DNA of 6,433 bases, taken from contig PMWR01000458.1 in the NCBI GenBank assembly GCA_003166055.1, positions 371 to 6,803 of the forward strand. The letters run 5' to 3'. A program made the translations under genes and the position numbers. This DNA comes from Acidobacteriaceae bacterium. Lineage in GTDB: Bacteria; Acidobacteriota; Terriglobia; Terriglobales; Acidobacteriaceae. A model generated the notes under the pieces. That model had not been told where the DNA came from. It worked only from the letters and a program-made list of their open reading frames with translations, and did not search any database. Numbering within the stretch: position 1 is the stretch's first letter; each line of letters starts with the position of its first letter. Of the stretch, positions 133-6,433 are shown in pieces.

Positions 133-138
133 CCGATC

Positions 139-209
139 TTCGTGGCGCCGCGGCGTTTACCGATGAAACGCACTTTCGGCTGTCGAGAACAGGAGTCTTG
201 CGCCACGAA
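139..209. repeat. 10-bp perfect inverted repeat upstream of the ATPase/nuclease operon
   Basis: TTCGTGGCGC (139-148) and its exact reverse complement GCGCCACGAA (200-209) are separated by 51 bases. The left arm overlaps a GC-rich palindrome, CGCCGCGGCG (146-155). The repeat sits between the stop of the preceding gene (132) and the ATPase start (256). It could form a long-range hairpin ending the upstream transcript, be an operator for the operon, or mark an old insertion edge. There is no clear T-run after the right arm, so a standard intrinsic terminator is not shown. Confidence 0.4.
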
Positions 210-255
210 AACTGACACTCTGATACCATGGCGGAACGAAAGGCAATGACCAGAA

Positions 256-1305
256 ATGAGCCGCATAACCAACCTTAAGCTCCAGAACTTCACGGCATTC
301 GAGAAACTTGACCTCAGGCCTTCTCCTGGGATCAACGTACTCGTTGGGGTGAATGGAACGGGGAAAACCCATATCCTCAAGGTCCTATATGCCGCATGTG
401 CGATCACAGAGGGCGAGGATAGGGACAAGCCCTTCGGGGTAAAGCTTCGCAATGTCTTCAGCCCCTATAACGGGGCGATTGGCAGGCTTGTTCGGCGGAA
501 GAAGGCTAGTGCCACGGCTCAAATCGAAGTCGTTCGTTTAGACGACGTACGGCTTCGAGCTGAATTCTCGAATCATGCCACCCTGGTGGAGAATACGCGC
601 ACCAAGAACCTTGCGGGCTGGACACGGAGTCCGCTTATAAGTGCATTTATCCCAGCCAAGGAAATGCTCGCACTTGCGCCCGGATTCATCGCAATCTCTG
701 CCCGGCGCGAGTGGTCAATTGAAGAGATATACATCGACATTATTAAGAAGGCATATCTGCCCATACTGACCGGACCCACTGGCAATGTGAGAAGATCGCT
801 CCTCGCAGCGCTTGAAAATGCGATCATCGGGAAGGTGATCGTTAAAGGTCAGACCTTTTTTCTAAAGAACAGCCAGGGCGAGCTTGAGTTTCCGCTCTTA
901 GCCGAGGGGATCCGAAAGCTGGCGCTGATCTGGTTGCTGATACAGAACGGAACACTGACGAGTGGTTCCATCCTTTTTTGGGATGAACCTGAGGCGAATC
1001 TCAACCCTTCGCTGATGGATCAGGTCGTCAGGGTTATCTTCAAGCTCCAGGAGTTGGGAGTGCAAGTATTTCTTACGACTCACAACTATGTTTTGCTCAA
1101 GCAGTTTGATTTGCAGACAGATAAGAAATCGAAGATTAAGTACATCTCCCTATATAGAGATGCCGTTGCTGGAAAGCCAACCGGCCCGGTCGTCGCGCGG
1201 GAGAGCGATACATACAGCGGGATCGAACCGAATGACATTGCCGGGACACTTGACCGGATTTACGACGACGAAGTGAAGCGCAGTCTTGGGGTAACAGCGA
1301 AATGA
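256..1305 (+). CDS. ABC/OLD-like AAA family ATPase, first gene of a putative two-gene defence operon
   Basis: This is a 349-residue cytoplasmic ATPase of the AAA_15/AAA_21 type (the SMC/RecF/OLD-like branch of ABC ATPases). An N-terminal strand-rich segment 'ITNLKLQNFTAFEKLDL' leads to Walker A GVNGTGKT (31-38). A conserved-looking FIPAKEML lies at 131-138, and a signature-like LLAEGIRKL at 214-222. Walker B is SILFWDEPEANLNP (238-251; D243 and E244 are the magnesium and catalytic acids), and the H-loop is TTHNY (274-278, H276). The insert between Walker A and the signature is about 175 residues with no long coiled coil, so it is not SMC or Rad50. There is no Toprim domain, so it is not a full OLD nuclease. 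The ATG at 256 is the first possible start, because an in-frame TGA lies at 247-249; AAAGG (239-243) is a distant ribosome binding site. Its stop overlaps the next gene (ATGA). The DNA is lower in GC than the flanks. The ATPase call is firm. The defence role is inferred from likeness to the ATPases of Septu and PARIS, which power a nuclease partner. Confidence 0.93.
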   Translation: MSRITNLKLQNFTAFEKLDLRPSPGINVLVGVNGTGKTHILKVLYAACAITEGEDRDKPFGVKLRNVFSPYNGAIGRLVRRKKASATAQIEVVRLDDVRLRAEFSNHATLVENTRTKNLAGWTRSPLISAFIPAKEMLALAPGFIAISARREWSIEEIYIDIIKKAYLPILTGPTGNVRRSLLAALENAIIGKVIVKGQTFFLKNSQGELEFPLLAEGIRKLALIWLLIQNGTLTSGSILFWDEPEANLNPSLMDQVVRVIFKLQELGVQVFLTTHNYVLLKQFDLQTDKKSKIKYISLYRDAVAGKPTGPVVARESDTYSGIEPNDIAGTLDRIYDDEVKRSLGVTAK

Positions 1306-1838
1306 AGCTATTTCGGGAGGGTGATCTTGAATTCGAATTCCCGGATCAGGCAGCGCCCCGCCGGTTTGACGATCCGAAGACTCACAGGCTGGCACACTGC
1401 ATGAAGGCGATTGACTGCATCTTTGAGTGGCGCGGAGATACATATTTTCTGGAAATCAAAGATCCGGAGAACCCAAAATCGCAGACAAAGGCCAAAGACC
1501 GGTTCTTGCGGGATTTTCAATCGGACGTTTTGAATAACAAGCTAACAATCAAGTACAGAGACTCCTTCATTTATGAATATGCTTCCGGCCGCGTAAAGGG
1601 TAGAGTTCATTATGTGGTTGTCATATGCATGAAGAATCTTGACAGCCATCTGCTGTCGAATAGGAGCGACGGATTGAGAAAGTCGCTGCCTTTAGAAGGG
1701 CCGAATGGGCCGTGGCAAAGGCCTTTTGTGTCGAGTTGCACAGTATTGAATATCGATGCATGGAAGCGCCTCTTCACGCAGATTCCTGTGCGCCGTGTGA
1801 GTGAAGTGGTTTCCGGCTCAACCCCAAATCAGGCATAG
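1302..1838 (+). CDS. small protein with candidate PD-(D/E)xK nuclease motif, partner of the ATPase
   Basis: This 178-residue protein begins inside the ATPase stop (ATGA, 1302-1305), so the two are translationally coupled and probably made together. I do not recognise a named family. The N-terminal part reads as 'hCMKAIDCIFEWRGDTYFLEIKDPE': an acidic residue at the end of one strand (D38), about a dozen residues with a tight turn, then E51-I52-K53 at the end of the next strand. That is the spacing and strand layout of a PD-(D/E)xK nuclease core. A helix with basic residues follows (about 60-82, including K63, K65, R67, R70), then a hydrophobic strand (VHYVVVICM, 102-110). There is no signal peptide, membrane segment or zinc site. 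It is not HNH (as in Septu PtuB) and shows no Toprim signature (as in PARIS AriB). The nuclease call rests on motif reading only. A non-catalytic sensor or effector built on the same fold is possible. Confidence 0.8.
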   Translation: MKLFREGDLEFEFPDQAAPRRFDDPKTHRLAHCMKAIDCIFEWRGDTYFLEIKDPENPKSQTKAKDRFLRDFQSDVLNNKLTIKYRDSFIYEYASGRVKGRVHYVVVICMKNLDSHLLSNRSDGLRKSLPLEGPNGPWQRPFVSSCTVLNIDAWKRLFTQIPVRRVSEVVSGSTPNQA

Positions 1839-1952
1839 CATCCCGACTTTTGTGGTGTCAGCGGCCAGGTCATAGGCCTAATTGCTGCGGATCCAGTCTG
1901 CGTCATGACCTTGAACGCGACCATACCTGTTTTGCTGAGGAGCCGAGCAACG

Positions 1953-1957
1953 AGGAG
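1953..1957 (+). promoter_or_regulatory. ribosome binding site fixing the Nudix gene start
   Basis: AGGAG lies five bases before the ATG at 1963, close to ideal. It supports that start and shows the Nudix gene is translated independently of the nuclease gene, which ends 124 bases upstream. No convincing sigma-70 promoter pair stands out in that spacer. Confidence 0.7.
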
Positions 1958-1962
1958 ACCCG

Positions 1963-2529: not shown

Positions 2530-2541
2530 GAGCCTGCCGCG
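2516..2541. terminator. hairpin between convergent Nudix and membrane-protein genes
   Basis: CGCGGCAGG (2516-2524) and CCTGCCGCG (2533-2541) form a perfect 9-bp stem with an 8-base loop that contains the Nudix stop codon (2527-2529). Two G-T pairs can extend it. It lies where a terminator is needed, between two genes that face each other. There is no proper T-run on either side, so it may be a Rho-assisted or mRNA-stabilising hairpin rather than a classical intrinsic terminator. Confidence 0.5.
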
Positions 2542-2581
2542 TTCCGAACGGATAGGAACCAGGCGGTTAGGGTCTGGGCGG

Positions 2582-3067
2582 TTAGGCGACGTGGAACTTC
2601 TTGTAGGCGCGAATGGTGAGCAAAATGAAGATCACCAGAACCGCAAGCTGGACGAACCCAAAGCCCGGCGAAGACATGGTGGGTCCAATGGATTTGAGCG
2701 CGGGAACTTTGGCAAATCCCTGTGCAACCAGAATGAAGAAATTGAAGTAGAAAGCCACGCAAACCGAGATGACATAGGTTCCGCGCCAGGAGCCTTCGAG
2801 TTTTTTGACGTAAAGCCCAACGATCGCCACAATGAGCGCAATGATCGACAGGACGCCGATGACAATGCCGGGTGTAATTGTCGTGATCGGAAACAGGAAG
2901 CCGGTGATGCTGGTCAAGGCCGTGGTGACCAGGAAGAGCGACGTGAGAATGCCGAGCCGCTGCGAGGTGAGCAGGCCGAAGACAACGAAAAGCCCGGCGC
3001 CGATTCCAACCAGGCTCAGGAATACGTGCAGGTAAGTGAATTGCACCAAACTCAATCCAAGAATCAT
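2582..3067 (-). CDS. small multi-pass inner-membrane protein of unknown function
   Basis: This 161-residue, very hydrophobic protein has four to five predicted membrane segments by eye: about 10-33, 38-58, 67-87, 97-117 and 136-154. Short polar links separate them, and the C-terminus is basic (RAYKKFHVA). Recognisable stretches are 'LSLVGIGAGLFVVFGLL', 'TSITGFLFP' and 'LVAQGFAKVPAL'. They recall a family of uncharacterised bacterial membrane proteins of this length found in Acidobacteria and Proteobacteria. No catalytic or metal-binding motif is visible. The ATG at 3065-3067 is preceded by AAAGGA (3075-3080) at a spacing of seven, a good ribosome binding site. It lies 71 bases downstream of the broken DUF302 gene on the same strand and could be read from the same transcript. 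The complementary strand also stays open for about 550 bases, but that frame encodes an implausibly polar shadow. Confidence 0.85.
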   Translation of the reverse strand: MILGLSLVQFTYLHVFLSLVGIGAGLFVVFGLLTSQRLGILTSLFLVTTALTSITGFLFPITTITPGIVIGVLSIIALIVAIVGLYVKKLEGSWRGTYVISVCVAFYFNFFILVAQGFAKVPALKSIGPTMSSPGFGFVQLAVLVIFILLTIRAYKKFHVA

Positions 3068-3074
3068 CGATTTG

Positions 3075-3080
3075 TCCTTT
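3075..3080 (-). promoter_or_regulatory. ribosome binding site of the membrane-protein gene
   Basis: Read on the reverse strand, AAAGGA stands seven bases before the ATG at 3067. It supports that start over internal methionines. Confidence 0.65.
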
Positions 3081-3138
3081 CGAAAACCGGGAAAGCGGGA
3101 ATGCTTACTCCGCGAACTCCAGTATGTGTCGATACACC

Positions 3139-3684
3139 CTAGAAACGAAGGAAGCGCGCTGTGCGACCGGGGGAAAGTGCTTTTGCCGATCCTGCGGCTG
3201 CCGTGAGCGGAGCTTCGACTTTAGCGCCTAGTTCCCGCGCAACTTGCAGCGCGGCAATAGTACCATAAGGGGCAAGAGAATTGGCCATTAAATCGCAGGA
3301 AAGATGAATGCCCCCCCGCGCGCTCATCGATGAGGACGCTTACCGGGGGGCGTAAGAAGCAGTGTCCGGCACGTGCTCCGACCTCTGTTTCATGATGAGC
3401 GGATTCCCCTCGACAAGGCGCACGATTTTCGGCGCGGAGGCGCCTTTCTCCTTGGCTATGACGAGGTCCAGGTTGAAGCGCGTGAACTCCATGAAGCCTG
3501 ACGGTCCGATAGACGCAAGGACTGCCTGTTCCAGTTCCTGCCAGGACTTTGCCGCGACCATCTTCTGGCCGAATTCGCGCATGTCCGGATGGCCGATCGA
3601 TGCTTCGAGAGAGGAAAGGACTTCTGCAAAGGGGTTGGAGGAAACTACGCTGAATCGCTCGACCGCAATTTGACGAATCGTCAT
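3139..3684 (-). pseudogene. DUF302-family gene broken by two frameshifts
   Basis: Read from ATG 3684 ('MTIRQIAVERFSV'), the protein follows a DUF302-type pattern through 'FMEFTRFNLD', 'RLVEGNPLIMKQ' and 'HVPDTASYAP', then hits TAA at 3340-3342. The continuation is present but displaced. 'PVSVLIDERAGG' reads in a second frame between two homopolymers, and 'GIHLSCDLMANSLAPYG' to 'KVEAPLTAAAG' resumes in the original frame down to TAG (3139-3141). The shifts fall in a run of six C (coding strand, 3345-3350) and a run of seven G (3311-3317). A reading with four or seven C and six G restores a single protein of about 180 residues. A possible earlier start at 3735 adds 17 residues unlike the family and is not favoured. 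DUF302 proteins are small alpha/beta proteins of unknown function. Whether the breaks are real mutations or indel errors cannot be told here. Confidence 0.8.
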
Positions 3685-3880
3685 GGCGCACCTGCCTTGA
3701 GGTTTGGATGTAGAGAGCCGGGGCGTGCGTCGCAAAGAACTTTAACCTCCCGGCATAGTAGACGTTCTGTCGCCTGAATCCACCCCGGCCGCGGGCAAGC
3801 CAATGTGATCAAAGATGAGCAGCCAGTGGACTCCTGGAGTGGAATCCTCTATTTTGACCCGAGAGGAGCCTTCCCCCGCC
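3685..3880. promoter_or_regulatory. divergent promoter spacer
   Basis: About 196 bases separate the start of the reverse DUF302 gene from the chosen start of the forward propeller gene, so both promoters should lie here. No strong -35/-10 pair is evident on either strand. A short odd palindrome, ACTCC-T-GGAGT (3830-3840), lies about 40 bases before the forward start and could be an operator, though a match this short may be chance. No small gene is supported in the gap. Confidence 0.35.
3864..3868 (+). promoter_or_regulatory. ribosome binding site deciding the propeller gene start
   Basis: AGGAG inside GAGAGGAG (3861-3868) lies 12 bases before ATG 3881, a long but usable spacing. The upstream in-frame ATG at 3815 has no such site. 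The ATG at 3962 has a GGAAG touching it, too close to serve. This favours 3881. Confidence 0.5.
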
Positions 3881-6205
3881 ATGAGTTCTCTGTCTTCGTA
3901 TCTCAATGTCACGCGGATTCCTGGTTCGCCGCCCTTCACTCGCAAGTCCCGCTTTCGGAAGATGGTATGCGTTGCCGGCCTGTTGCCATGCCTGGCCCTC
4001 ATCTGTTGCGACAGTGCTCCACAACCGGTTACAAATCCCGGTGATTTTTCGCTGACTTCCACGCCCGGAACAATCACGCTTGTCTCCGGCGGCGCGGGTC
4101 AGGGGATCAGCGTCAATGCCGTCCCGGCAAATGGCTTCACTGGGGTTGTGACAGTCGCGTTCACCGGACTGCCCGCGGGTGTGACCGCAAATCCGGCGAC
4201 GCTGACGCTCACTCCGGGAATGGCGCAGAATGTAACGCTCGCCGCTGCTTCAACCGCTGCGGCAGGCAACGCGACGGTGACTCTTACCGGAACATCGGGA
4301 ACCCTCAGCCATTCGGCAGCTGTGGCGTTGACCGTTTCCGCAGCCCCGCCGCCACCGGACTTTTCCCTGGCCGTGTCACCGGCGTCGCTGACGATCGTGG
4401 CCGGGGCAACCGGCTCGCCGGTGAGCATCCTGGCGACCCCGTTGAATTCGTTTAGCGGCACGGTCGCTGTGACGATCACCGGACTCCCGACCGGAGTCAC
4501 TGCGAATCCTGCGACGCTCACGTTGTCTCCGGGGACGGCGCAAAACACTACGCTGACAGCCGGCGCAGGCGCGGTGGCGGCAACTCCAACGGTCACCTTC
4601 ACGGGAACCACAGGCAGCCTCACCCACACTGCCACACTGGCTCTGACGGTGCAGGCCGCGGTCTCGTCCACTAACGCGCCGGATGTGACAACCTACCATG
4701 ACGACATTGCGCGCGACGGACTGAATGCGCAAGAAACCATCCTGACGCTGAGCAATGTGAACTCCACGCAGTTCGGCAAGCTAGCCTTCGACACGGCGGA
4801 CGGTTTGGTCGACGCTGAACCGTTGTATCTAGCCAATGTGACTACAAGCGGCAAGTTGCGCAATGTTCTGTATATGGCCACCGAACACGACAGTGTCTAC
4901 GCCTTCGATGCCGATAGCGGCACCCAGTTGTGGAAGACGTCGATCCTTGGAACCGGCGAAACCACCAGCGACGATCATGGCTGCGGGCAGGTGACGCCCG
5001 AAATAGGAATTACCTCGACGCCGGTGATCGATCGCAAACAGGGGCCGAACGGTACGCTCTTCACGATTGGCATGAGCAAGGATGCAAGCGGCAACTACCA
5101 TCAGCGTCTCCATGCGCTCGACGTCACCACAGGCGCGGAGATCAGCGGCAGTCCGACCGAGATTACCGCAACCTATCCAGGAACGGGAGACAACAGCTCG
5201 AACGGCAACGTGGTGTTCGCACCGGGACAATACAACGAGCGCGCGGCCTTGCTGCTGTTGAACGGCAGCATCTACCTCGGCTTTTCATCGCACTGCGACA
5301 TCAAGCCCTATACCGGCTGGGTAATGGCTTACAGCGAGTCCACGTTGCAGCAGACGCAGGTGCTGAACATGACGCCAAATGGCAGCGAAGGCTCCATCTG
5401 GATGAGTGGCGACGGTATCGCCGCGGACAGTAGCGGAAACCTCTACTTTCTGGATGCGAACGGCAGTTTCGATACCACCTTGAATTCCAGCGGTTTCCCT
5501 GCGCAGAACGACTTCGGCAATGCGATGATCAAGCTCTCGACGAGCGGCAAGCTGGCGGTTGCCGACTACTTCGAGACCTATAACACGGTCATGGAATCCG
5601 ACGAAGACGAGGATCTGGGATCAGGCGGGGAAGTCCTGCTGCCCGACCAGACAGATGCGCAAGGAGTGGTCCATCACCTGATTGTGGGCGCGGGCAAAGA
5701 CAGCAATATCTATCTCGCGGACCGGGATAATCTGGGCAAGTTCGAGCCCAGTATTATCACGGATCCCAACATTTACCAGGAGGTTACGGGTGCGCTGTCA
5801 GGCCAGGTCTTTTCCACCCCCGCGTTCTTCAACGGCGTGCTCTACTATGGCGCGGTTGGAGATGGCCTGAAAGCTTTTCCAATGACCGATGCGCTGCTCG
5901 GGACCACTCCGTCGAGCCAGTCGTCCGTCTCATTTCCTTACCCAGGGACCACGCCGAGCGTATCCGCCAATGGGAGCCAGAACGGGATCGTATGGGCATT
6001 GGAATCCAGCATGAGCGCTCCCGGAGTCCTGCACGCCTACGATGCGACCAATCTGACGCATGAACTTTACAACAGCGGCCAGGCTGCCAGTGGGCGTGAC
6101 AGCTTCGGCAATGGAAACAAATTCATTACCCCGCTGGTTGTGAACGGCAAGGTATACGTCGGAACCCAGACCGGGGTTGCGGTGTTTGGATTGCTGGCTC
6201 AGTGA
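3881..6205 (+). CDS. exported protein with two Ig-like domains and a PQQ-like beta-propeller
   Basis: From ATG 3881 the protein has 774 residues. A basic region (FTRKSRFRK) and a hydrophobic core (VCVAGLLPCLALICC, about 29-43) form an export signal. The double cysteine suggests a lipoprotein, but the residues before it do not fit a normal lipobox. Two Ig-like modules follow (about 55-152 and 160-257), each starting 'DFSL' and containing 'GVTANPATLTL', joined by a PPPP linker. The rest (about 265-774) is a PQQ-like propeller with blade motifs such as 'YMATEHDSVYAFD' (331-343), 'DSNIYLADRD' (607-616), 'NGVLYYGAVGDGLKAF' (651-666) and 'NGKVYVGTQTGVAVFGL' (755-771). An acidic loop 'ESDEDEDLGSGG' (572-583) may bind calcium. 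The only two cysteines after the signal (C368 in DDHGCG, C472 in SSHCD) could pair. Such proteins are common in Acidobacteria; binding partner and substrate are unknown. I see no complete quinoprotein dehydrogenase active site, so enzymatic activity is doubtful. Confidence 0.9.
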   Translation: MSSLSSYLNVTRIPGSPPFTRKSRFRKMVCVAGLLPCLALICCDSAPQPVTNPGDFSLTSTPGTITLVSGGAGQGISVNAVPANGFTGVVTVAFTGLPAGVTANPATLTLTPGMAQNVTLAAASTAAAGNATVTLTGTSGTLSHSAAVALTVSAAPPPPDFSLAVSPASLTIVAGATGSPVSILATPLNSFSGTVAVTITGLPTGVTANPATLTLSPGTAQNTTLTAGAGAVAATPTVTFTGTTGSLTHTATLALTVQAAVSSTNAPDVTTYHDDIARDGLNAQETILTLSNVNSTQFGKLAFDTADGLVDAEPLYLANVTTSGKLRNVLYMATEHDSVYAFDADSGTQLWKTSILGTGETTSDDHGCGQVTPEIGITSTPVIDRKQGPNGTLFTIGMSKDASGNYHQRLHALDVTTGAEISGSPTEITATYPGTGDNSSNGNVVFAPGQYNERAALLLLNGSIYLGFSSHCDIKPYTGWVMAYSESTLQQTQVLNMTPNGSEGSIWMSGDGIAADSSGNLYFLDANGSFDTTLNSSGFPAQNDFGNAMIKLSTSGKLAVADYFETYNTVMESDEDEDLGSGGEVLLPDQTDAQGVVHHLIVGAGKDSNIYLADRDNLGKFEPSIITDPNIYQEVTGALSGQVFSTPAFFNGVLYYGAVGDGLKAFPMTDALLGTTPSSQSSVSFPYPGTTPSVSANGSQNGIVWALESSMSAPGVLHAYDATNLTHELYNSGQAASGRDSFGNGNKFITPLVVNGKVYVGTQTGVAVFGLLAQ
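4043..4651 (+). repeat. tandem duplication encoding two Ig-like domains
   Basis: Unit one (4043-4336) and unit two (4358-4651) have the same length and align throughout: 'DFSL', 'FTGVVTVAFTGLPAGVTANPATLTL' against 'FSGTVAVTITGLPTGVTANPATLTL' (shown here in part), 'PG.AQN.TL' and 'LTV'. The protein match is closest around GVTANPATLTL, while the DNA differs mainly at third codon positions. That points to an old intragenic duplication kept by selection on the protein. Confidence 0.85.
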
Positions 6206-6247
6206 GCACGCAGGGGCCGGATTGCGCGAGCTTCCGCGCGTGGCTCA

Positions 6248-6249
<2 letters not shown>
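6201..6249. terminator. bulged hairpin spanning the stops of two convergent genes
   Basis: AGTGAGCACGC (6201-6211) pairs with GCGTGGCTCACT (6238-6249) as 11 base pairs with one bulged G (6242). The stem contains the stop codon of the propeller gene (6203-6205) and touches that of the citrate synthase gene (6248-6250). The 26-base interior holds a further GCGCG/CGCGC pairing. The position suits a terminator serving both strands, but no T-run follows. Confidence 0.45.

Positions 6250-6433
<184 letters not shown>

Follow-up and report, generated by a model that had tools for sequence, protein, structure and literature searches.

The DNA analysed here, a stretch of 6,433 nucleotides from an Acidobacteriaceae bacterium (contig PMWR01000458.1, positions 371 to 6,803; hereafter the window), carries two adjoining genes, A and B, which like all their motifs described below lie on the forward strand. 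Gene A (256..1305) encodes an OLD-type ABC ATPase of 349 amino acids, and gene B (1302..1838) a predicted PD-(D/E)xK-type nuclease of 178 amino acids. The stop codon of A and the start codon of B share an ATGA (1302..1305); a first-pass annotation of the sequence had called the genes fused by this overlap, which is present, but the two are adjacent and not fused. Against PADLOC-DB, A matches the HEC-02A model PDLC04213 (8e-115, residues 3-345 of 349) and the adjoining gene B, with its 4-base overlap, matches the HEC-02B model PDLC04229 (5.6e-50, residues 1-167 of 178). Judged by these protein models and by adjacency, the pair is a member of the catalogued candidate anti-phage family HEC-02, whose members often lie within larger operons for defence. 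The next different PADLOC family for A is AriA (4.3e-25). The first-pass annotation had proposed an undescribed system; we reject this, because the HEC-02 models match both genes and the architecture appears in the accessible part of a 2026 paper (PMC12839542). Two further PADLOC-DB models seem to have exchanged labels: PDLC04146, called 'HEC-02B', matches the ATPase, and PDLC04145, called 'HEC-02A', the small protein.

A matches the Pfam family AAA_21 (1.9e-24), and the Walker A, Walker B and H-loop motifs noticed in the first pass were all located and have invariant key residues. In the alignment of relatives, G31, N33, G36 and K37 of the Walker A motif GVNGTGKT (residues 31-38; 346..369) are invariant in all 74 rows with a letter there. 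The same holds, in 79/79 such rows, for W242, D243 and E244 of the Walker B motif ILFWDE (residues 239-244; 970..987) and for T275 and H276 of the H-loop TTH (residues 274-276; 1075..1083). A also bears NLNP at residues 248-251. Structures were predicted for single chains, with 72 input sequences for A and 94 for B. The model of A is confident (predicted local distance difference test score, pLDDT, 93.3), and its top Foldseek match is PtuA (1.2e-14); its closest structural relatives are PtuA, Rad50 and the ATPase heads of SMC proteins.

Pfam gave no match for B. Moreover, the pattern D-x(8-20)-[DE]-x-K arises in 66% of shuffles of B, and a D/E/K motif in a single sequence is therefore no evidence; the weight of the site comes from its conservation across 106 aligned sequences (the window, 81 related loci and 24 database proteins, one of which, P0001, is 99% identical to the B of the window and hence hardly independent). 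D38 (1413..1415) and E51 are conserved in 106/106 and K53 in 105/106 (E51-I-K53, 1452..1460), the exception being an arginine in L001; these are the three residues named in the first-pass annotation, at the positions it gave. It had overlooked E6 (1317..1319), which is glutamate in 97 and aspartate in 2 of the 103 rows with a letter there and is the probable fourth residue of the site. In 98/106 sequences, position 6 is acidic and D38, E51 and K53 are all present. As invariant as the D/E/K site are K84, R86 and D87 (106/106), which lie in a predicted helix (residues 84-87). The model of B is likewise confident (pLDDT 91.4), and its order of strands and helices is consistent with a PD-(D/E)xK nuclease core. 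Weak structural and sequence matches include the nuclease domains of Shedu SduA and of Can2/Cdn1, defence proteins whose nuclease domains are PD-(D/E)xK nucleases; the sensor domains of those proteins are absent from B, and the sequence similarity is not significant. The D...(D/E)xK site that characterizes the PD-(D/E)xK superfamily is thus present and conserved in a compatible model, as opposed to a fold that lacks a nuclease core and conserves none of the three residues, but the structural matches are not strong. Taken together, the conserved site and the model suggest that B is a PD-(D/E)xK-type nuclease, much as first proposed.

To follow the pair across genomes, we scanned a genome collection with the B alignment and confirmed 83 loci. 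We kept 80 of them, and a scan of viral sequences added one, for 81 loci. In 80/81, B directly follows A or a remnant of A, and in the sole exception (L055) the contig breaks off 43 bases upstream of B, so that homologues of B do not occur mostly without the ATPase. By an open reading frame (ORF) rule, A is full length in 73/80 loci and is broken, shortened or cut by a contig end in 7. The gap between the genes is -4 in 49 of the 80 loci with both genes and -1 in 10/80. Distances between A proteins correlate with those between their B partners (r=0.75, n=72), with none of 2000 permutations as high, and the correlation persists without the group embedded in type I bacteriophage exclusion (BREX) operons described below (r=0.53, n=59, again 0/2000). 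For the tree of A we left out L022, L026, L038, L045, L050, L065 and L071, in which A is truncated, broken or contig-cut, as well as L055, and the distance test further omits L054 and L059. In a sample of 274 genomes from a single class, the profiles of A and B also pick out the same two, including the genome at the centre of the sample. These data support a strict two-gene unit. In one locus (L050:3878-9998) the ATPase gene is interrupted by about 5 kb, and B is open downstream; the interruption holds three copies of a 392-amino-acid transposase-like ORF, alike over 150 residues and named by eye.

In the window, the pair is inserted between two housekeeping genes, hflX and nudF, in keeping with the first-pass remark that it sits alone among such genes. 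Positions 1-132 resemble the C terminus of HflX, and a NUDIX protein (nudF) is encoded at 1963-2529. The nearest relatives came from a sample of acidobacteria, which points to a host in that phylum. Among NUDIX loci from drawn genomes, hflX was found in the flank (about 1.5 kb) of 4/47: in three of these relatives (L107, L114 and L115) hflX and nudF are directly adjacent without the pair, and in L083 they are parted by another insert. DNA similarity between the window and the genome G174 ends at 132 and returns at 1993. G+C content, taken in 400-base windows over positions 201-2000, is 0.47-0.54 and rises to 0.58-0.63 just downstream of the pair. From the empty site, the similarity break and the G+C content, the inserted stretch spans approximately 133..1962, with no strand assigned.

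The hflX-nudF site looks variable. G174 carries a different insert there (L103:6912-8208), with a 302-amino-acid ORF that has no Pfam match, begins with a D...ExK-like stretch recognized by eye and overlaps a Y1 (IS200-like) transposase ORF (PF01797, 3.9e-6). In the genome G010 (L104), sequence like window positions 6249-6433, citrate-synthase-like by eye, follows nudF after about 50 bases. Window positions 2530-6248, which encode a PQQ-like protein and contain two small ORFs, may therefore form another variable segment. The whole window has no Rfam match and no tRNA. Between positions 100 and 2000 we found no promoter-like site and four terminator-like sites (shuffle mean 2.2), and between 1 and 3400 short repeats only.

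The surroundings of related pairs bear on what the pair does. In 21/81 loci it lies inside a BREX operon. Ten of these are type I BREX operons with the pair between BrxC and PglX (L063, L064, L066-L070 and L074-L076); two more (L073 and L077) have BrxC directly upstream, followed downstream of the pair by PglX in L073 and by an unrecognised protein in L077. The other nine (L001, L002, L003, L006, L012, L014, L033, L071 and L081) are BREX operons with BrxC, PglXI and PglZ, several also with BrxHI; the contig of L071 starts inside A, and its BREX genes are seen downstream only. BREX labels come from PADLOC for genes of L063, L081, L073 and L077 and one gene of L033, and from tblastn with the genes of L063 and L081 for the other loci. 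We did not count L060, which has just two short BREX-like fragments more than 5 kb away. The only two plasmid matches, among 72,556 records, also occupy the type I BREX slot, one as annotated and the other judging from the order and sizes of its genes. The BREX operon on one plasmid (pLM6) holds, besides its HEC-02 pair, a second gene annotated as PDDEXK (L133:12990-14147), flanked by pglX and pglZ. Three loci (L001, L014 and L081) carry a HEC-01 pair too; L081, the single viral-collection contig with the pair, is filed as viral in IMG/VR and carries a BREX operon with embedded HEC-01 and HEC-02 pairs. None of 50,697 phage records has the pair.

The remaining 60/81 loci have no BREX genes in the flank covered, and in 33 of these each flank extends for 8 kb or more. 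The window itself is of this kind: a Pfam scan of its six ORFs found no BrxC, PglX or PglZ. A quick tree of A with 74 rows places the window in a well-supported group of 13, five of which are BREX-embedded. Across that tree the stand-alone label changes nine times, gains and losses counted alike, and at least five of the changes are forced by well-supported branches. Because the pair recurs in fixed slots of two kinds of BREX operon, a defence role is favoured, as the first-pass annotation had supposed, and is supported by this context. The flanks of the other loci weigh against defence-island reasoning: immediate neighbours of non-BREX pairs are not clearly richer in PADLOC matches than ORFs 6.5-9.5 kb away, and both sets show scattered single matches. 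This comparison (PADLOC at 1e-30, 113 immediate neighbours versus 81 distant ORFs) is rough, because counts are per family and not per protein and the near set is partly listed (25/50 families, versus 24/24 far). The near set began as 115 neighbours, two of which (L015:10671-14042 and L030:10694-14047) were dropped for size, and includes those of L073 and L077, later reclassed as BREX loci.

HEC stands for Hma-embedded candidate, a name from Payne et al. 2024 as cited in the available portions of PMC12988326 and PMC11411939, and antiviral activity has been shown for several HECs, including HEC-06, according to the text available from the former. A literature search by name, which reached the Payne preprint through citing papers, found no test of HEC-02 anti-phage activity among the matches listed. 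Like the catalogued family, both proteins of the window match their models over almost the whole length and their genes adjoin, whereas the window copy stands outside any other defence operon, with hflX and nudF as neighbours. As far as can be told, embedding is the route by which HEC candidates were discovered, not a structural requirement. The accessible text of PMC12839542, which counts Hma among BREX-related systems, reports that in BREX and related systems of 594 taxa OLD-ABC ATPases have HNH, PD-(D/E)xK or PIN nucleases as partners, and proposes such pairs in BREX as backup effectors. Its OLD-ABC and PD-(D/E)xK restriction-endonuclease (REase) pairs have the two-protein architecture found here, and relatives of our pair lie inside BREX operons, although the window has no recognised BREX gene; from the portion of that paper available, our pair may well be identical with its families.

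The first-pass annotation had compared the pair with Septu and PARIS and found that the partner fits neither, which our searches bear out. Septu (PtuA ATPase with PtuB HNH) provides the best Foldseek match of A, namely PtuA, but the partner differs: searches of Pfam, PADLOC and NCBIfam gave no HNH match for B, and its conserved site is E-D-ExK. PARIS (AriA ATPase with AriB Toprim) likewise combines an OLD-ABC ATPase with a separate effector, but A matches AriA models only weakly beside HEC-02A, and B has no Toprim match in the same three resources. We therefore reject membership of either system.

We consider it likely, if short of assured, that the pair is a stand-alone HEC-02 member that acts against phage, with A as ATPase sensor and B as nuclease effector; a mobile sensor-ATPase and nuclease-effector module is the most likely reading of the pair. 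A, probably dimerising around ATP, would sense a cue of infection and hold or gate B in a putative A-B complex. Once released or switched on, B, with a predicted metal site formed by E6, D38, E51 and K53, would cut nucleic acid, either the DNA of the phage or, so as to abort the infection, nucleic acid of the host.

A housekeeping pair for DNA-end processing or repair, resembling Rad50/Mre11 (SbcCD-like) and without a defence function, seems unlikely to us. Its occurrence would have to be reconciled with a patchy and rare distribution: B was found in 0/399 genomes of a class sample around the window's nearest relative (at most eight candidates scored per genome; the positive control, 10/10, is true by construction), and the pair in 2/274 of the other class sample, and the 80 genome loci span 20 named phyla. 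Repeated placement inside BREX operons and the three relatives in which hflX and nudF adjoin without the pair also argue against repair. We rate as similarly improbable a toxin-antitoxin-like or selfish pair, in which a toxic nuclease B is restrained by A and spreads without a primary anti-phage role. The overlapping genes and patchy spread would suit it, as would the precedent of PARIS, whose ATPase activates a nuclease on infection (PMC12839542, in the part available), but the recurrent fixed slots in two kinds of BREX operon point to defence, and the ABC-type motifs of A may suggest sensing over simple neutralisation. That B binds nucleic acid as a non-catalytic member of the PD-(D/E)xK fold, with A the active partner, is very improbable: BREX helicases contain inactive REase-fold sensors, according to the accessible part of PMC12839542, and the structural matches of B are weak, but a four-residue site intact in so many sequences is hardly expected of a dead one.

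With the sensor-effector reading in place, one further proposal concerns the relation to BREX. Most sampled copies stand alone in the flanks covered, and two kinds of BREX operon would have gained, or released, the pair repeatedly at fixed slots; embedded and free copies may for this reason share one trigger, such as a phage anti-restriction protein. We put just short of an even chance on the pair being a self-sufficient mobile defence module of this kind and not a part of BREX.

What is new here is another HEC-02 copy, a stand-alone one, in a family already known. Together with the 60 of 81 sampled copies that have no BREX genes in the flank covered, in many phyla, it suggests that HEC-02, which takes its name from embedded copies, also occurs on its own, and probable catalytic residues of B can now be named. 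If the free copies act alone, the embedded ones would be best seen as captured back-up systems and not as components of BREX.
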